DNA from: Megasphaera micronuciformis F0359
Lineage (GTDB): Bacteria; Bacillota; Negativicutes; Veillonellales; Megasphaeraceae
Assembly: GCF_000165735.1 (NCBI RefSeq)
Contig: NZ_GL538175.1
Location: 1 to 32,386, forward strand
Direction: 5' to 3'
Length of the DNA: 32,386 nucleotides
Shown: positions 17,884-27,334 of the stretch, piece after piece
How positions within the stretch are numbered: position 1 is the stretch's first letter
How the letters are laid out: each line of letters starts with the position of its first letter
Made by a program: the position numbers and the translations under genes
Notes under the pieces: generated by a model
Seen by the model: only the letters and a program-made list of their open reading frames with translations
Told to the model about the DNA's origin: nothing
The model's database searches: none

Positions 17884-17956
17884 AGGACTTCAAGATGTGG
17901 GTGCGTGAAAAAGTATCTCTTCGTCTTTGGAAGAATTATAACATGAGTATTCTCTA

Positions 17957-17985
17957 TTGACATATATCTTCGTGTACGATACAAT
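17957..17985 (+). promoter_or_regulatory. consensus promoter of the aromatic leader and tyrA operon
   Basis: TTGACA (17957-17962), exactly 17 bp, TACAAT (17980-17985): one mismatch from the sigma-70/A consensus. Transcription should begin near 17992, 33 bases before the leader ORF. It is one of the two best promoters in the window. Confidence 0.8.
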
Positions 17986-18024
17986 ATCAGCAATTATTAC
18001 TCAATTGATGAGAGGTAATATCAA

Positions 18025-18171
18025 ATGAAGACCTTGTCCACATCGTTACGGACAGTTGAATACGGAGCAAACTTTTTTAGCTGGGGCTACTATTTTAGCG
18101 CCGGCTATTTTTGCTACAAAAAATTCAACAGTACGACAAATGACATGAGACAAGTTCGCGTCGATGAATAA
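18025..18171 (+). CDS. aromatic-rich leader peptide of the tyrA operon (attenuator)
   Basis: A 48-codon ORF with ATG at 18025, AGAGG at 18011-18015 and TAA at 18169-18171. Residues 17-34 read FFSWGYYFSAGYFCYKKF: ten Phe/Tyr/Trp codons in eighteen, with one more Tyr at 13. It lies between a consensus promoter and a strong terminator (18222-18249), upstream of tyrA-aroA-aroC-aroK. This is the classic layout of attenuation, where ribosome stalling at scarce aminoacyl-tRNA changes RNA folding. A 6-bp hairpin, AATTGT/ACAATT (18171-18193), starts at the stop codon. I have not proved an antiterminator pairing. The peptide itself probably has no function of its own. No T-box core sequence is present. 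Confidence 0.75.
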   Translation: MKTLSTSLRTVEYGANFFSWGYYFSAGYFCYKKFNSTTNDMRQVRVDE

Positions 18172-18221
18172 ATTGTATAAATTCGGGACAATTGAAAGTC
18201 GATAGTTATCGGTACCTAACG

Positions 18222-18249
18222 GGCAGGCTCATGAGAGCCTGCCTTTTTT
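18222..18249 (+). terminator. attenuator terminator before tyrA
   Basis: GGCAGGCTC (18222-18230), loop ATGA, GAGCCTGCC (18235-18243), then six T. It lies 50 bases after the leader stop codon and 164 bases before tyrA, so full termination would silence the operon unless it is relieved. Confidence 0.88.
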
Positions 18250-18413
18250 ATTTGATACAAGGAAAGAGCTGAAATTACGATTATGTTGTCAGTGAGGATT
18301 CTTATATATACGGGTACGGTTGCAGTCGGAAAGTTACAGACCGAGTAGAAAGCTCGGCTTTGGAGTCTTGATGCCAAAGGCCCTTTTGGTGAGAAAACCG
18401 TATAGGAGTTACT
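18250..18413 (+). other. untranslated stretch between attenuator and tyrA, no recognised gene
   Basis: About 160 bases with no convincing reading frame. It contains a small hairpin CCGAG/CTCGG and the tyrA ribosome site TAGGAG. Given the two gene remnants downstream it might be the scar of a lost first gene, for example a DAHP synthase. I tried all three forward frames and found no family motif. Confidence 0.3.
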
Positions 18414-19310
18414 ATGAGAGAAGAAGCAAAAGAATTTTTAAAAAATTTGAATATTGCCGTTATCGGCTTAGGGCTTATGGGAGGATCCTTTGCCAAACGA
18501 TTGCGTGAACGGACGAAATGCCGGATTACAGCTTTTGATTGTGAGGCTGAGACGTTGAACAAAGCCCTGGCAGACGGGGTTATCGATGCCGGCTATACGG
18601 AAGGAAACGAAGAACTGAAAAAGGCGGATCTTCTTATTGTGTGTCTGTCACGAGATAATATGCTTTCCTTTTTGCGACAAAACGCCGTATATTTAAGAGA
18701 AGGACAAACGCTGACAGATATTATAGGCATAAAGGGAAACTCCGTTGAAGCGGCGAAAAATCTTTTGCCTGATGGCGTCGATTACGTACCTGCCCATCCC
18801 ATGGCCGGACGGGAAGGCTGCGGATATGATATGTCCAGGGCCGATATCTTTGATTGTGCCAACTATATTATCGTACCGAATAAGCGTACAAGCCGTAAAG
18901 GCATAAAAATAGTGGAAAGCCTGGCAAAGGCTCTGGGATGTTCTCACATCCCCGTCGTAACGACTAAAGAACATGACCGGAGAATTGCTTATACGAGTTG
19001 TCTTCCCCACGTGTTGGCGACGGCCTTGGTCAACAGTCCGTCTATGGACGGGCGTATGGGCCGATTTATTGCCGGCAGCTTTAAGGATGCCACTCGTGTT
19101 GCCGATATTAATGCCGCTCTATGGGCACGCCTTCTCTTAGCCGATAAAAAAGCGCTGTTACAGGAAATAGATCGCTTTAAAGAAGCTCTGGATAAGGTAG
19201 AAGAGAGCCTTTTACAAGGTGACAAAGAAGGACTGGAAGAATTTTTAAAAGAAGCGGGAACACGAAGAAGAGAAATGATTCGTGAATACCGTAAAGGTCA
19301 ACATGAATAA
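18414..19310 (+). CDS. tyrA: prephenate dehydrogenase
   Basis: NAD(P)-dependent oxidative decarboxylation of prephenate to 4-hydroxyphenylpyruvate, the tyrosine branch. The Rossmann motif is IGLGLMGGSFAKRL (about 17-30). The catalytic His lies in VPAHPMAGREGCGY, and the helical C-terminal domain has GSFKDATRVADINAALW. 298 residues is normal for a domain without ACT or chorismate mutase. Its last 29 bases overlap the aroB remnant in another frame. It is the first intact enzyme gene behind the attenuator. Confidence 0.92.
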   Translation: MREEAKEFLKNLNIAVIGLGLMGGSFAKRLRERTKCRITAFDCEAETLNKALADGVIDAGYTEGNEELKKADLLIVCLSRDNMLSFLRQNAVYLREGQTLTDIIGIKGNSVEAAKNLLPDGVDYVPAHPMAGREGCGYDMSRADIFDCANYIIVPNKRTSRKGIKIVESLAKALGCSHIPVVTTKEHDRRIAYTSCLPHVLATALVNSPSMDGRMGRFIAGSFKDATRVADINAALWARLLLADKKALLQEIDRFKEALDKVEESLLQGDKEGLEEFLKEAGTRRREMIREYRKGQHE

Positions 19311-19429: not shown

Positions 19430-20713
19430 ATGAATTTAGTATTGACACCGAAAAAATTGAGCGGCATTTTAGCTGTGCCGTCATCTAAAAGTGCAGGGCA
19501 CAGAGAGTTGATTTGTGCGGCACTGGCAGACGGCAAAAGCTTGGTAAAAAATATAACTCCTTCCGAAGATTTGGAAGCTACGTGTCGAGTTCTTCAAGCG
19601 TTCGGTGCGACTGTTGAAACGGTGTCGCATGAAGACGGTCGCCTGACCGTTGCCGTAACGGGCGGATTAAGGCCGCAGACAGGATCACTTAGGGCAGATT
19701 GCGGCGAATCCGGTTCGACCGTGCGTTTTCTCATTCCCGTCGGCTTGTTGACGGGAATGAAGATTACCTATACTGGACGAGGTCGCCTGCCCGAGCGGCC
19801 GTTGGATCCATTTTTGAATATTTTCGACAACAAGAAAATTGCTTATACAAAGGGGAAAGATTCCTTGCCGCTCACTGTAAAAGGACGATTAAAAGGGGGT
19901 ATTTACGAACTTCCTGGAAATGTTAGTTCTCAGTTTTTTACGGGGTTATTGATGGCGCTGCCCCTTTTGCCGGATGATTCGGTATTGCAAAGTACGACGG
20001 TAGTAGAGTCGGAAAGTTATATCAACATTACTTTAGACTGCCTGCGACGGCATGGTATATATGTAGAAAAAGAGCGTGACGGGTTATATCTTATTCGCGG
20101 TCGGCAAGCTTATCGTACCGGTGAATACCCGGTAGAAGGAGACTTTTCACAAGCCGCCTTTTGGCTCGTCGGCGGCATTATCGGCGATACTGTCGAATTA
20201 AAAGGCTTAAGCAATAATTCGACTCAAGGCGACAGAACTGTCGTATCCTTCATCGAGTCCATGCGCGGACGCATTGAACGAAGCGGCAGTGTGTTACGGG
20301 CCGTACCGTCTCGGACAACGGGACTGACGATTGACGTGAAAGACTGCCCGGACTTGGTGCCGGCTCTGGCTGTTCTGGGAACCTTCAGTCAGGGTATAAC
20401 GAGGATTGTTAACGGGGCGAGAGTGCGGCTTAAGGAATGCGACAGGATTCACGCCATGACTCACGAGTTGAACTCCATAGGCGCAAAGGTGCGAGAAACC
20501 GGGGACGGATTGATTATTGAAGGCGTTTCTTCCCTGACAGGCGGGCGCGTACAGGCGTGGAATGACCATCGCATTGCCATGGCCTTGGCCATGGCTTCAC
20601 AGAGATGTACCGGTAAATTGACTATTGAAGGGGCCGAGTGCGTACGCAAGTCCTATCCTTCTTTTTGGCAAGACTTTGCACATATGGGCGGCATAGCCGT
20701 AGAGGAGACTTAA
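19430..20713 (+). CDS. aroA: 3-phosphoshikimate 1-carboxyvinyltransferase (EPSP synthase)
   Basis: Transfers enolpyruvate from PEP to shikimate-3-phosphate. Motifs seen are VPSSKSAGHRELICAALADG at the N-terminus (Lys/Ser substrate site), DCGESGSTVRFLIPV, SSQFFTGLLMALPL, VEGDFSQAAFWLVGG, RLKECDRIHAM and WNDHRIAMALAMA. 427 residues is standard, and the protein is intact. It is two bases from aroC, so the pair is probably coupled. Confidence 0.96.
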   Translation: MNLVLTPKKLSGILAVPSSKSAGHRELICAALADGKSLVKNITPSEDLEATCRVLQAFGATVETVSHEDGRLTVAVTGGLRPQTGSLRADCGESGSTVRFLIPVGLLTGMKITYTGRGRLPERPLDPFLNIFDNKKIAYTKGKDSLPLTVKGRLKGGIYELPGNVSSQFFTGLLMALPLLPDDSVLQSTTVVESESYINITLDCLRRHGIYVEKERDGLYLIRGRQAYRTGEYPVEGDFSQAAFWLVGGIIGDTVELKGLSNNSTQGDRTVVSFIESMRGRIERSGSVLRAVPSRTTGLTIDVKDCPDLVPALAVLGTFSQGITRIVNGARVRLKECDRIHAMTHELNSIGAKVRETGDGLIIEGVSSLTGGRVQAWNDHRIAMALAMASQRCTGKLTIEGAECVRKSYPSFWQDFAHMGGIAVEET

Positions 20714-20714
20714 G

Positions 20715-21803
20715 ATGAATACAATAGGGCATAATTTAAAATTGACCGTATACGGCGAATCACACGGTAAATCTATAGGAGCCGTATTGGATGGATTGCC
20801 GTCGGGGGAATACCTTGACTGGGATGAGGTAAAAAAAGAAATGGCACGACGGGCTCCGGGAAAAAATACCTTGTCTACATCGCGGAAAGAAGGCGATGTC
20901 TTTGATGTACAGAGCGGTTATTTTAATGATGCTACGACGGGAACACCGCTGGCCGTTATGATAGAAAACACGAATACCCGGTCTGAGGATTATGACGAGT
21001 TACGACATCTCATGAGACCGGGGCATGCCGACTACACGGGCAAAGTACGCTATGACGGGTACAATGACTATCGCGGCGGCGGGCACTTTTCAGGTCGATT
21101 GACGGCCCCCTTGGTCTTTGCCGGAGCGGTAGCTTCGCAAATTTTGGCGCGACGGGGAATCTACGTGGGCTCTCATATTCTGCAGATTCATGACGTCCAG
21201 GATCGACCTTTTAATCCCGTACATGAAGAGTTAAGTCTCCTTCTTTTTTTAAAGAACATGACCTTGCCTCTTTTGGATGAAACCCGAACCGAAGCGATGG
21301 AAGAAGCGGTTGCCGTAGCCAAGAGCCGTCAGGATTCCGTCGGCGGTATTATTGAAGGCATTGTGACGGGTATGCCGGCCGGGTACGGCGATCCGCTTTT
21401 TGACTCCGTTGAAAGTCGGCTGGCACAAATGCTGTTCTCCGTTCCGGCTGTTAAGGGGATTGAATTCGGCGACGGATTTGCCCTGGCTGCCATGACGGGA
21501 TCTGAAAGTAATGATTCCTTTTATTATGATAAGGACGGGACGGTCAAGACACGGACCAACCATAACGGCGGCATTAACGGCGGTATTACGAACGGTATGC
21601 CCCTTGTTTTTCGGACCGTTATTAAAGCTACGGCATCTATCGGACAGGAACAGCAGACCGTCGATACGGATTCGGGAAAGGACACGACTCTCATCATCAA
21701 AGGGCGGCACGATCCTTGTATCGTCCAACGGGCCGTATCGGTTATCGAAGCGGCTACCGCTTGGACCGTTCTCGATATATTACTGACTCGGGGAGACTTA
21801 TAA
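20715..21803 (+). CDS. aroC: chorismate synthase
   Basis: FMN-dependent elimination of phosphate from EPSP to give chorismate. Motifs are YGESHGKSIGAVLDGLPSG, MRPGHADYTGKVRY, YRGGGHFSGRLTAPLVFAGA and NHNGGINGGITNGMPLVFR, followed by RHDPCIVQRAVSVIEA. 362 residues is normal and all signature blocks are intact. It is followed after one base by the pheA remnant. Confidence 0.96.
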   Translation: MNTIGHNLKLTVYGESHGKSIGAVLDGLPSGEYLDWDEVKKEMARRAPGKNTLSTSRKEGDVFDVQSGYFNDATTGTPLAVMIENTNTRSEDYDELRHLMRPGHADYTGKVRYDGYNDYRGGGHFSGRLTAPLVFAGAVASQILARRGIYVGSHILQIHDVQDRPFNPVHEELSLLLFLKNMTLPLLDETRTEAMEEAVAVAKSRQDSVGGIIEGIVTGMPAGYGDPLFDSVESRLAQMLFSVPAVKGIEFGDGFALAAMTGSESNDSFYYDKDGTVKTRTNHNGGINGGITNGMPLVFRTVIKATASIGQEQQTVDTDSGKDTTLIIKGRHDPCIVQRAVSVIEAATAWTVLDILLTRGDL

Positions 21804-21804
21804 G

Positions 21805-22180
21805 ATGAGTGTACAAAAGAGAGAAAAGATCGCTTGTTTCGGGGTTCCCGGGTCATATAGCCACGAATTATACACGTTTCGTCGTCATATCCAAGGATGT
21901 CTTACCACATCAGGGAGACAAGATGACCCTGGTTATTATTACGGAACACGTACCGGGAGCCCTGTATAAGGCTTTGGGATACTTTTATCATTCAGGTATG
22001 AATATGACTCACTTAGAGTCGCGACCTATACCGGGAAAACCTTTTGAATACTCGTTTCATATTGACGTGACGGGAGACCTCGACTCGGCGGTGTGTAAAA
22101 AGGCTTTGGGAAAATTAGAGGGACAATGTAAATACTTTAACATCCTGGGAACCTACCGGGCCGCCGAGAACAGATTATGA
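21805..22180 (+). pseudogene. pheA: pheA remnant (prephenate dehydratase): N-terminal tip joined out of frame to the ACT domain
   Basis: From ATG 21805 the frame reads KIACFGVPGSYSHE, the usual start of prephenate dehydratase. At about 21868 similarity jumps to the +1 frame: TNYTRFVVISK, the end of the catalytic domain (TRF motif), followed by an intact ACT domain (PGALYKALGYF, then MNMTHLESRPIPGKP and EYSFHID) to TGA 22180. About 150 residues of catalytic core are missing and the frame is shifted, so the enzyme is dead. ATG 21923 has GGGAG five bases upstream and could express a free ACT domain of about 85 residues. Confidence 0.8.
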
Positions 22181-22333: not shown

Positions 22334-22849
22334 ATGGAAAATCATAATATTGTTATTATCGGTATGCCCGGAAGCGGTAAGACGACATTCGGGACCGCAT
22401 TGGCAGAAGCTCTGGGGCGCGATTTTTACGACGCCGATACCTATTTGGAAACCAGTGAAGGCCGAACTATCAAAGAGTTGTTTGCCGTCAGTGAAGATTG
22501 TTTTCGAGATGCGGAAACCCGTACGGCCCGTGCCTTGGGGAGTAAAAAGGGTGTCGTTATAGCCACGGGCGGCGGCGTTATTAAAAGGCGGGAAAATATT
22601 GATATTTACAAGGAAAACGGAATTATCATTTTCCTTGACCGGGCCCCGGAGGATATTGTTACCGATGTAGATGTATCGACCCGTCCCTTACTCAAAGACG
22701 GACCGTCTAGAGTCTTTGACCTGTACAGAGAGCGCATTGATACTTATCGTTCATCGGCAGACTATCGTATGGCTAATGATGAGAGTATTGAACATGTATT
22801 GGAACATTTGGAGCGTCTTGTAAAGGAACTGTTGGAAAAAAGAATCTGA
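22334..22849 (+). CDS. aroK: shikimate kinase
   Basis: Phosphorylates shikimate at O3 with ATP. The P-loop is GMPGSGKTT (about 10-18), followed by the shikimate-site DADTYLE, the GGG motif in ATGGGVIKR and the lid arginine in STRPLL. 171 residues is typical. It is the last gene of the aromatic operon. Together with aroA and aroC it takes shikimate to chorismate, so the operon still supports the whole lower pathway although aroB and pheA are broken. Confidence 0.93.
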   Translation: MENHNIVIIGMPGSGKTTFGTALAEALGRDFYDADTYLETSEGRTIKELFAVSEDCFRDAETRTARALGSKKGVVIATGGGVIKRRENIDIYKENGIIIFLDRAPEDIVTDVDVSTRPLLKDGPSRVFDLYRERIDTYRSSADYRMANDESIEHVLEHLERLVKELLEKRI

Positions 22850-22935: not shown

Positions 22936-24237
22936 ATGGGTGAAGAGTTAAATAAGGCCGTTACGGCAAAGAAAACCAAGAAGCGATGGTTTATGCTTTT
23001 TCTGCTGTTTATTTTAACAGCTATAAACTATTTGGATCGCACCAATATGGCTGTAGCGGCACCCAGTATGAGTAGTGATTTGGGGTTTGATGCGGCTACA
23101 ATGGGGCTTCTTTTTTCCGCCTTTGCCTGGTCATACGGGTTGATGCAGATTCCCGGCGGCTGGCTTTTGGAATGCTTCGGGTCGCGAGTATCTTACACGG
23201 TCTCTTTGTTCTTATGGTCCGCTTTTACGGTGGCTATGGGGTTCGGCAAGAGCTTTGCGTCACTATTCGGTATTCGTCTCGCCATCGGAGCAGCCGAGGC
23301 TCCGGCCTTTCCCACGAACAGTCGTGTGGTAGCGGCTTGGTTTCCCGATAAGGAGCGGGCGACGGCCACGTCAATTTATACGGCCGGTGAATTTATCGGA
23401 CTTGCTTTTTTAACACCCGTTCTTTTTTGGGTTCTGGAAAACTACGGATGGCAGGAAATCTTCTATCTCACCGGCGGCATCGGAATTATGGCTTGCTTGG
23501 GTTGGCATTATTTATATCGAGATCCTGCCGAATGCACCGATGTCAATCAAGGGGAGTTGGATTATATTCGTGAAGGTGGCGGGTTAGCGGAAAAAGCGGG
23601 AGCCACGCGCTCTATTACGCGTCGTCAAATTACGGAACTTTTCAAACATCGTCAGCTCATCGGCGTATACATAGGGCAGTTTGCCAATACAAGTACCATG
23701 TATTTCTTTTTAACCTGGTTTCCTACGTATCTTATTGTGGCGAAACAGATGCCTATGCTGAAGGCCGGTATTTATGCGGTCATTCCTTACATAGGGGCCT
23801 TGTGCGGCGTCTTGTTGGGAGGGCGTTGGTCCGATTGGATGTTACAACGCGGGGCATCTTTATCAAAGGCCAGGAAGATTCCCGTTATTTTCGGACTCCT
23901 GTGTTCCATGACCATTATGGCGGCAAACTACGTAGACTCCTTTCATGAGGTCATTGCCATTATGACTCTGGCTTTCTTCGGACAAGGGATGGCGGCCATT
24001 GTTTGGAGTACCGTCGGTGATATGGCACCCGCCGATTCAGTCGGCTTGGCCGGCGGAGTTTTCAATTTTATCGGCAATCTGGCAGGCATTATAACGCCCA
24101 TTGCTATCGGCATTATAGTCCAGGCTACGGGATCCTTTGTAGGGGCTATGCTTTTCATCGGATGCGTAGCGGCTGTAGGAGTTTTTTCCTTCATCTTTAT
24201 TGTCGGAGATATTCATCGCATAGAAGTAAAAGAATAA
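22936..24237 (+). CDS. MFS permease, anion:cation symporter (ACS)-type
   Basis: 433-residue inner-membrane carrier with about 12 predicted spans. INYLDRTNMAVAAPSM after span 1 and the GGWLLECFGSR loop are typical of the ACS family, whose characterised members (DgoT, GudP and hexuronate carriers) bring in sugar acids and other organic anions with protons. The substrate is not readable from sequence. Its position directly behind aroK makes quinate, shikimate or a related hydroxy-acid a reasonable guess. AGGGGGGAAG precedes the ATG. A stem-loop follows the stop. Confidence 0.88.
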   Translation: MGEELNKAVTAKKTKKRWFMLFLLFILTAINYLDRTNMAVAAPSMSSDLGFDAATMGLLFSAFAWSYGLMQIPGGWLLECFGSRVSYTVSLFLWSAFTVAMGFGKSFASLFGIRLAIGAAEAPAFPTNSRVVAAWFPDKERATATSIYTAGEFIGLAFLTPVLFWVLENYGWQEIFYLTGGIGIMACLGWHYLYRDPAECTDVNQGELDYIREGGGLAEKAGATRSITRRQITELFKHRQLIGVYIGQFANTSTMYFFLTWFPTYLIVAKQMPMLKAGIYAVIPYIGALCGVLLGGRWSDWMLQRGASLSKARKIPVIFGLLCSMTIMAANYVDSFHEVIAIMTLAFFGQGMAAIVWSTVGDMAPADSVGLAGGVFNFIGNLAGIITPIAIGIIVQATGSFVGAMLFIGCVAAVGVFSFIFIVGDIHRIEVKE

Positions 24238-26128: not shown

Positions 26129-27334
26129 TTACGCCGCTTTTCTGTTTTTCATAACACTGTTATACCGCACATAAATGATGCAGGCAACGATGAATCCTGC
26201 CAAAGCGATGGCTGCATCAAGCCCCATGATGGAGTTGATACCGCTATCGGCCATATATCCTGTAATAACGGGAATGGTAAAGGAAGCAATGGAGCCGGTA
26301 GTATAGAAAATACCGGTCATAGTACCCTTGCCCTTGGGGAACATTTCCGTCATCATAACCAAACCGAGCTGCATAACGCCGCCGGCAGCGGAAAAGCCTA
26401 CGACCGCCGAGAGAATCGGAGCCAGGGAAGCGGACGGATAGTAATACAGACCGCCGATAGCCAAGGTGGATATCAGAGTGTATACAACAAGAAGTGTAAT
26501 GGGGCGAACGCCTTTTTTCGTAATGAAGGCGGTGAAGAAGACGCAAGCCAAAGAACCGATGGAGTAGTAGCTCATTAAGGAACGAGCTGCCAAGTCCGGC
26601 ATTTGCGCCACGGCAACACCGTATTTTGTAAGCCACTGACTGATAAGATAGAAGGTAGCCTGAGAAATATAGCCGTACAGTACGAAGCAAATACCTTCAA
26701 GGTACCATTTGGATTTCGGGGCTTCTACAGGAGCTTCCGAAGCGTCGTTCTTGTCATTGTTGCCTACTTGATTCATGGCAGGGAAGCCCATTTTCAACAT
26801 AATGACAAAATTCAGAGCCAAGATGACGGCAGCTACGATAAAGGACCAGCCGTACCAAGCATTCATCATGACGAGGACGCCGATGAAGAGAGGCAAGAGG
26901 AATTGCCCTGCCGAAATGAAGGCTTTCAAAAGTACTGTAACCGTGCTGGCACTTTCGGGATACGATTCGATCAGTGCCGGATACGTACCGGCATCGAGGA
27001 AGGAGTTGGCAATGCCTGCCAAAATCCCGAAGACGCAGGCAACGGCCGTTGTGGGGCTGACTAAAATGCCGAGGAAGAAGGCAATGTAGGTAATCATACC
27101 CAAGAGAACGAAGGGTTTACGACCGTATTTGTCGGATAATTTGCCCGATACGAAAAGAACGATGAGTCGGCCGATACCGAGCATGCCGATGACGCTCATG
27201 ACGTCGGCTAAACTGCCCCAACGTGCAGCAAGGGCATCCATGTTTTGGGCGAGAATCAATACGCCGATGCCGTGTACGAAATAGTTGAGATACAGGCTCA
27301 GGCATAAGGGGCGATAAGAACGGGTCTGTTCCAT
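26129..27334 (-). CDS. MFS permease, YdiN-like (putative quinate/shikimate-type transporter)
   Basis: 401-residue carrier with about 12 spans. From my memory of E. coli YdiN, the match is good: HGIGVLILAQNM, GIGRLIVLFVSGKLSDKYGR, AGIANSFLDAGTYPALIESYP and KAFISAGQFLLPL all have close YdiN counterparts. YdiN is itself only predicted to carry a shikimate-like substrate. A short charged loop (about 195-210) splits the two halves. It lies between a YdiB-type dehydrogenase and aroD, which supports import of quinate, shikimate or dehydroshikimate. AAGGAG precedes the ATG. Confidence 0.85.
   Translation of the reverse strand: MEQTRSYRPLCLSLYLNYFVHGIGVLILAQNMDALAARWGSLADVMSVIGMLGIGRLIVLFVSGKLSDKYGRKPFVLLGMITYIAFFLGILVSPTTAVACVFGILAGIANSFLDAGTYPALIESYPESASTVTVLLKAFISAGQFLLPLFIGVLVMMNAWYGWSFIVAAVILALNFVIMLKMGFPAMNQVGNNDKNDASEAPVEAPKSKWYLEGICFVLYGYISQATFYLISQWLTKYGVAVAQMPDLAARSLMSYYSIGSLACVFFTAFITKKGVRPITLLVVYTLISTLAIGGLYYYPSASLAPILSAVVGFSAAGGVMQLGLVMMTEMFPKGKGTMTGIFYTTGSIASFTIPVITGYMADSGINSIMGLDAAIALAGFIVACIIYVRYNSVMKNRKAA

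Follow-up and report, generated by a model that had tools for sequence, protein, structure and literature searches.

In the attenuators of proteobacterial pheA and trp operons, stall codons in a leader peptide, a protector hairpin, an antiterminator, and a terminator follow the same order and logic as the parts of the locus described here. These attenuators are treated in the review PMC11802643, which also describes the aroR-aroF attenuator of Corynebacterium glutamicum (Neshat et al. 2014): a leader peptide with Phe-Tyr-Phe precedes a DAHP synthase operon, ribosome stalling raises transcription, and the system responds to limitation for Phe but not to the availability of Tyr. An aroF attenuator that senses Tyr-tRNA is listed in PMC2659441. 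The uORFC-13-1 motif of Acholeplasma aroF places an upstream open reading frame (uORF) with one or more Phe codons and a terminator before DAHP synthase; according to PMC8632094, its 24 examples come only from Acholeplasma and environmental sequences. In Firmicutes, including Peptostreptococcaceae, leader-peptide attenuation is described for histidine genes of a few lineages, in sections of PMC9413887 and PMC2965389 that mention no aromatic leaders. By their descriptions, the actinobacterial aroR-aroF element differs from the leader reported here in lineage and in its response to Phe rather than Tyr, and uORFC-13-1 differs in its range of hosts; with respect to the proteobacterial attenuators, the Rfam amino acid operon leader families gave no match to the leader, at gathering score or at E values up to 10. 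In Firmicutes, the control of aromatic genes is generally attributed to T-box RNAs or TRAP.

We analyzed a stretch of 32,386 nucleotides from Megasphaera micronuciformis F0359 (contig NZ_GL538175.1, positions 1 to 32,386), referred to below as the window. A first-pass annotation had proposed that a leader-peptide attenuator controls an aromatic operon in this DNA (Table 1). The near-consensus promoter, the ribosome site, the 48-codon open reading frame (ORF) with ten aromatic codons in eighteen, and the small hairpin at the stop codon were all found as it had described them; its terminator likewise has a G/C-rich stem followed by six T, but with 10 pairs instead of the claimed 9 bp. The eighteen stall-region residues comprise five Phe, four Tyr, and one Trp. 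None of 20,000 dinucleotide shuffles of positions 17987 to 18250 contained an ORF of at least 25 codons holding ten aromatic codons per any 18, and the leader ORF ranked highest in aromatic density among the window's 348 such ORFs on both strands, the next having 9, 8, and 8. Promoter patterns of this quality occur three times in the kilobase scanned (2.3 expected by chance). Among 99 collected leaders, 76 have a promoter-like sequence no more than 130 nt before the start codon, as counted with a loose pattern and no chance control. The small hairpin at the stop codon is present in the minimum-energy fold, and the attenuation model needs it at no step.

Table 1. Features of the leader locus, the downstream genes, and the T-boxes of the same genome
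Feature	Position	Strand	Evidence
Sigma-70-type promoter, TTGACA-17-TACAAT	17957..17985	+	11/12 consensus matches
Shine-Dalgarno-like GAGAGG of leader ORF	18010..18015	+	sequence
Leader peptide ORF, 48 codons, MKTLSTSLRTVEYGANFFSWGYYFSAGYFCYKKFNSTTNDMRQVRVDE	18025..18171	+	ATG 18025, stop TAA 18169-18171; homologues found
Putative stall region, ten aromatic codons, residues 17-34 (FFSWGYYFSAGYFCYKKF)	18073..18126	+	codons kept across 59 relatives
Predicted protector (1:2-type) hairpin of untranslated RNA, holding the antiterminator strand	18033..18154	+	pair probabilities in naked RNA
Core hairpin AGCTGG:CCGGCT in coding region, possible RNA polymerase pause hairpin	18079..18106	+	probability 1.00 in naked RNA
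Putative antiterminator 5' strand CATGAG, within leader ORF, pairing with CTCATG (18228-18233)	18144..18149	+	covariation in relatives
Intrinsic terminator, stem 18221-18230/18235-18244, loop ATGA, T-run 18244-18249	18221..18249	+	10 pairs, 7 G-C, six T
tyrA, prephenate dehydrogenase, first gene of proposed regulated operon	18414..19310	+	Pfam PDH_N, PDH_C
aroA, EPSP synthase	19430..20713	+	Pfam EPSP_synthase
aroC, chorismate synthase	20715..21803	+	Pfam Chorismate_synt
ACT-only ORF between aroC and aroK	21809..22180	+	Pfam ACT, 24 bits, under cut-off 27
aroK, shikimate kinase	22334..22849	+	Pfam SKI
MFS transporter after aroK	22936-24237		Pfam
MFS transporter between aroD and aroE	26129-27334		
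T-box before trpE, own genome (L151)	G000:C33:31795-32032		84.5 bits, under family cut-off 93
T-box before trpS, own genome (L149)	G000:C37:38583-38794		93.6 bits, over cut-off

Taken together, the sequence elements, their conservation, the covariation of the antiterminator, and the mutually exclusive modeled folds make it very probable that transcription attenuation at the window leader is ribosome mediated and of the trp/phe type. In the proposed scheme, the RNA would begin just after position 17985. Without translation, the coding region would fold into a long hairpin holding CATGAG, the terminator would form, and transcription would stop. On shortage of Phe- or Tyr-tRNA, a ribosome would stall within residues 17 to 34 and open the long hairpin; CATGAG, now just past the stalled ribosome, would pair with CTCATG, the end of the terminator 5' arm together with the loop, before the 3' arm is made, and RNA polymerase would then read into tyrA-aroA-aroC-ACT-aroK. 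When charged tRNA is plentiful, the ribosome would reach the stop codon and cover CATGAG, so that the terminator would form. The stalling, its timing, the read-through, and the rank of Phe and Tyr over Trp as main signals are steps that we infer.

Folding of the window RNA was modeled for each of these states, with the main stall folds counting only RNA downstream of the ribosome. In naked RNA, the protector pairing CTTGTC:GACAAG (18033-18038 with 18149-18154) had a probability of 0.85 while the terminator 3' arm was still missing and of 0.99 in full-length RNA, and GTTGAAT:ATTCAAC (18055-18061 with 18123-18129) reached 0.98; the antiterminator stood at 0.01 before the 3' arm and the complete terminator at 0.98. 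For nine of 11 modeled stalls (Y13, F18, W20, Y23, F24, Y28, F29, Y31, and F34), the antiterminator rose to 0.83 to 1.00, with lower values at F17 (0.51) and Y22 (0.30), and a ribosome modeled at the stop codon covered the antiterminator strand and favored termination. A check for mutually exclusive antiterminator and terminator forms, proposed with the original claim, thus returned both. When upstream RNA was allowed to pair round the stalled ribosome, the antiterminator reached only 0.01 to 0.08 in the three stalls modeled, and in finished RNA the terminator won at 0.98 to 0.99 in every modeled state. Since the terminator wins once its 3' arm is made, antitermination would have to be kinetic; a kinetic decision is accepted for known attenuators. 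The locus combines clustered codons for the pathway products, a terminator before the first gene, an antiterminator freed by stalling in the folding model, and, in folding of the window only, a protector hairpin.

A DNA search of 60 genomes, the window's own included, gave matches in 17: 14 of the 15 in the genus, both genomes of a second genus in the family, and one of another family, where leader DNA identity reaches 97% over 36 nt. In three genomes (G001, G015, and G016) nothing but the terminator matched at the DNA level, and reading of the locus revealed the leader. G005 carries two copies, giving 18 leaders; the next gene is DAHP synthase for 15, tyrA in G001 and in the window's own genome (G000), and an ACT-domain gene for the second G005 copy. 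That copy (L053, L198) was seen to precede an ACT-domain-pair gene. The consensus of 17 leader peptides is AIEYVFTYFSWGYxYFSAGYFCYDKFN, and the ends drift. A profile of these peptides matched 72 of 380 Negativicutes genomes at an E value of 0.01; on reading, leaders were kept in 61, four genomes were rejected, and seven were left out (G092, G195, G196, G268, G330, G333, and G334). Among 53 further Negativicutes loci that were read, eight (G332, G073b, G007b, G008b, G173, G116, G143b, and G273; E values of 5e-4 to 9e-3) were dropped as non-leaders.

The family extends into a second class. Scanning named genomes with the pattern TATTTTAGCGCYGGCTATTTT gave 14 stretches, of which 13 were leader-like: seven from Megasphaera or Veillonellaceae and six from Clostridia (Clostridium sp. 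OS1-26, three in Intestinibacter bartlettii, and two Clostridium metagenome-assembled genomes). A stretch from Legionella fairfieldensis proved on reading not to be a leader. A wider profile of 31 peptides matched 57 of 391 Clostridia genomes at an E value of 0.001, and all 30 Clostridia loci then read (29 from these matches plus a third Intestinibacter copy) were leaders, each followed by a terminator-like hairpin, for a Clostridia total of 36 leader loci. An even draw of 398 genomes from the phylum had matches in 12 at an E value of 1e-4, five already known and seven new; six of the new loci lie before DAHP synthase (by reading) and one before 3-dehydroquinate synthase (NCBIfam aroB). Megablast of positions 17900 to 18450 against phage records gave no match.

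Aromatic genes follow 96 of the 99 leaders collected (18 + 45 + 6 + 30). DAHP synthase is the next gene in 85, with 80 calls by a motif rule (GPC motif within 1.3 kb) and five by reading; the other aromatic next genes, by family matches where scanned, are TyrA (four), AroK (three), AroE (two), AroA (one), and PheA (one). The remaining three leaders precede an ACT-pair protein (G005b), a LarA-family protein (L096), and an unrecognized frame (G038), and a near twin of the last (G025) has DAHP synthase after its leader. A ribosome site was present in 97 of the 99, a count that is partly circular because most starts were picked with the site in view, and a hairpin with a T-run was picked in all 99, taking the best without a score threshold, with G086 clearly the weakest. 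Far from being peculiar to one operon, the leader belongs to a family found across Negativicutes and Clostridia, mostly before DAHP synthase. In Intestinibacter bartlettii, three leader copies (L096, L094, and L157) stand before a LarA-family racemase-like gene, aroE, and pheA; the first of these targets may have a role in the metabolism of aromatic lactates.

Considered alone, the 6-bp window antiterminator did not go beyond shuffles (P value, 0.29; minimum duplex energy), and the same test fell below 0.05 in 13 of 65 leaders; given this weakness of the single-leader test, comparative tests were used instead. Across the family, a stretch about 28 to 35 nt past the core is complementary to the end of the terminator 5' arm and the loop, with CATGAG/CTCATG in Megasphaera, TAATGAGT/ACTCATTA in Clostridia, and the further pairs AAATGAGT/ACTCATTT and AAGAATCTCT/AGAGGTTCTT; in some lineages its position varies (TGATGAGTC/GACTCATCA at 11 nt) or it has bulges. 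A pairing of the terminator arm with the AGCGCCGGCT core was dropped, as the stretch some 28 to 35 nt after the core fits better. In 64 clusters, which remove relatedness only in part from these statistics, the element scored 6.50 with its own terminator and 5.15 with swapped ones, the observed sum was not attained in any of 100,000 permutations, and the element beat the upstream window in 56 clusters (five equal) and the downstream window in 50 (nine equal). An anchored count (TG[AG]G:CTCA, found in 49 of the 99 leaders, 44 distinct) gave pairing at position -2 in 40 of 44, against 21.2 in shuffles (0 of 5,000), as A-T (20), C-G (14), G-T (three), G-C (two), and T-A (one). Position -3 paired in 32 of 44 (shuffled, 23.5; P value, 0.0002) and position -1 in all 44 (shuffled, 42.1; P value, 0.025), while positions -4 and +1 to +4 gave no clear pairing excess in the 44 distinct leaders, so that covariation is confined to three loop-side positions. 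Seven held-out leaders scored 7.71 with their own terminators and 5.50 with swapped ones, six of them above the upstream control, and in the held-out pair AGTGAGGTTT/GAATCTCACT the anchor region is changed on both sides. These results also bear on whether the locus simply encodes a small protein without regulatory function, has a terminator of its own, and happens to precede an aromatic operon. Such a gene would have the promoter, ribosome site, ORF, and terminator that are all present here, but no Pfam family was found for it, and it would leave without reason both the steady place before aromatic genes and the co-varying overlap between ORF and terminator; we find this explanation scarcely credible.

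To assess the codons, 59 cores from 64 cluster representatives were aligned; five rows (G413, G423, G451, G025, and G121) were dropped by judgment because the position of the core or the element looked off, and several of these stayed in the antiterminator permutation test. Internal gaps in the 59 diverse cores are multiples of three. At four positions of the core, 92 to 100% of the relatives have an aromatic codon, which nearly always specifies Phe or Tyr, and the core Phe/Tyr codons show synonymous change as well as Phe/Tyr exchange. Over the 18 codons leading to the end of the core, Phe/Tyr density is 0.52; beyond that point, aromatic density is 0.09. The expectation that aromatic codons are kept while others drift was therefore borne out in these relatives. 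Conservation of the reading frame weighs against a structured RNA that acts independently of translation, such as a riboswitch or T-box-like element, with the ORF incidental. Such an RNA would suit the very conserved core nucleotides and the folding of positions 17992 to 18250 (-78.4 kcal/mol; mean of shuffles, -53.5; z, -5.57), and a candidate aromatic riboswitch mentioned in PMC4448216 precedes the aroFBC-tyrA operon of Enterococcus faecium. However, the ORF spans the core in all 99 kept leaders, gaps in the aligned cores respect the codon frame, and synonymous change is seen. At the leader, no Rfam family scores above its gathering threshold, and a search with the T-box model (RF00230) finds nothing there even at E values up to 10, although it gives 13 matches elsewhere in the genome, six over the cut-off. 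We consider this alternative most unlikely. Sub-threshold Rfam matches at the leader (L20 leader, 25 bits against 58.7) were taken as chance.

The Trp codon behaves differently from the Phe and Tyr codons, being TGG in 30 of the 59 relatives and replaced by Gln in 18. Over all 99 peptides (4,655 residues) there are 596 Phe, 519 Tyr, and 98 Trp; 79 peptides hold at least one Trp, in 51 of them at or near the hairpin codon by a pattern-based count, and the Trp codon lies in the arm of a possible hairpin, which may explain it. Persistence of the Phe/Tyr codons beside a Trp codon kept in only 30 relatives points to Phe/Tyr, and not Trp, as the conserved signal of the family, as far as sequence can indicate. 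T-boxes lie before trpE and trpS in the same genome (Table 1), which fits a division of labor with Phe and Tyr read by the leader and the Trp genes controlled by T-boxes. The first-pass proposal that Phe, Tyr, and Trp are sensed together is thus upheld only in part, by the conserved codons for Phe and Tyr more than by the Trp codon.

The coding region may itself be constrained as RNA. The core hairpin, AGCTGG:CCGGCT with GCTA:TAGC, is paired in 88.1% of alignment cells in the 59 relatives, against 25.5 to 45.8% for slid versions. It exceeded shuffles in paired cells (0 of 500), covariation score (0 of 500), and cells changed on both sides (1 of 500), and did not do so in pairs changed on both sides (130 of 500) or pair types (218 of 500). 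Changes on both sides were more numerous when the pairing was slid by -1, affecting 28 cells and 7 pairs compared with 15 and 3 in the original register. RNAalifold predicted only three pairs in the core (-1.03 kcal/mol) and not this hairpin, so the case for it rests on the counts, and our confidence in it is moderate. The hairpin may serve as a polymerase pause hairpin, and its pairing may be the reason why the Ser, Gly, and Ala codons are conserved. Such a constraint matters for a rival reading, in which a conserved SAGYF peptide arrests the ribosome by sensing free aromatic amino acid in the tunnel, as TnaC does, and not uncharged tRNA. A nearly invariant Gly-Tyr-Phe (G in 57, Y in 54, and F in 53 of 59) and the DNA identity of up to 97% over 36 nt in another family's genome would suit such nascent-peptide arrest. 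However, the possible coding hairpin has the Gly, Ser, and Ala codons in its arms and would account for them without arrest; most core positions show replacement of Phe by Tyr or the reverse; and the N-terminal and C-terminal parts drift. In our judgment, arrest in place of attenuation is very unlikely. That the invariant Gly-Tyr-Phe adds arrest to attenuation, one peptide reading both free aromatic amino acids and tRNA charging, appears highly improbable.

Downstream of the proposed attenuator, Pfam confirmed tyrA, aroA, aroC, and aroK in the order first annotated, with the addition of an ACT-only ORF before aroK that had been missed. By eye, this ORF resembles the regulatory domain of prephenate dehydratase; it is possibly a separate Phe-binding subunit. 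DAHP synthase was not found in the window's own genome, where the sole PF00793 match is 3-deoxy-8-phosphooctulonate synthase and no type II match was obtained, and 3-dehydroquinate synthase was not found there either; both absences rest on an assembly rated 98.33% complete. The genome keeps aroD, aroE, aroK, aroA, aroC, and tyrA. Given that the two early enzymes were not found, that the later genes are kept, and that MFS transporters lie nearby, the cell perhaps imports quinate, dehydroshikimate, or shikimate. The spacer of about 160 nt between terminator and tyrA (18250-18413) folds like its own shuffles (z, -0.44). A search of it for a DAHP synthase relic showed no clear remains; at most, about 40 nt at its beginning look like the region around the ribosome site and start codon of DAHP synthase in relatives, a likeness noted without a chance test.

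Collectively, leader-peptide attenuation of the aromatic operon is strongly supported by the exclusive folds, the kept codons, and the covariation, whereas joint sensing of Trp is only partly borne out, and the leader is not restricted to a single operon. Attenuation of this kind has been described before, but the family and the range it covers appear to be new, and we found no account of this family in the open-access literature searched. We would give an even chance to the wider proposal that aromatic biosynthesis in Negativicutes, and in many Clostridia, has one homologous attenuator family as a main switch, which reads the joint supply of Phe and Tyr and leaves Trp genes to T-boxes, with a coding sequence that doubles as a conserved, partly co-varying hairpin and antiterminator strand. 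The findings suggest that the added role of its codons in RNA structure can keep a leader peptide recognizably homologous between distant lineages. The family would give a searchable model for Rfam, and it offers a clean test of a ribosome reading two amino acids with one leader. DAHP synthase is the entry step of the pathway, and a leader-peptide attenuator that can be recognized from sequence across two classes would help to complete the picture of how this enzyme is regulated in many anaerobes, including Megasphaera, Clostridium, and Intestinibacter.
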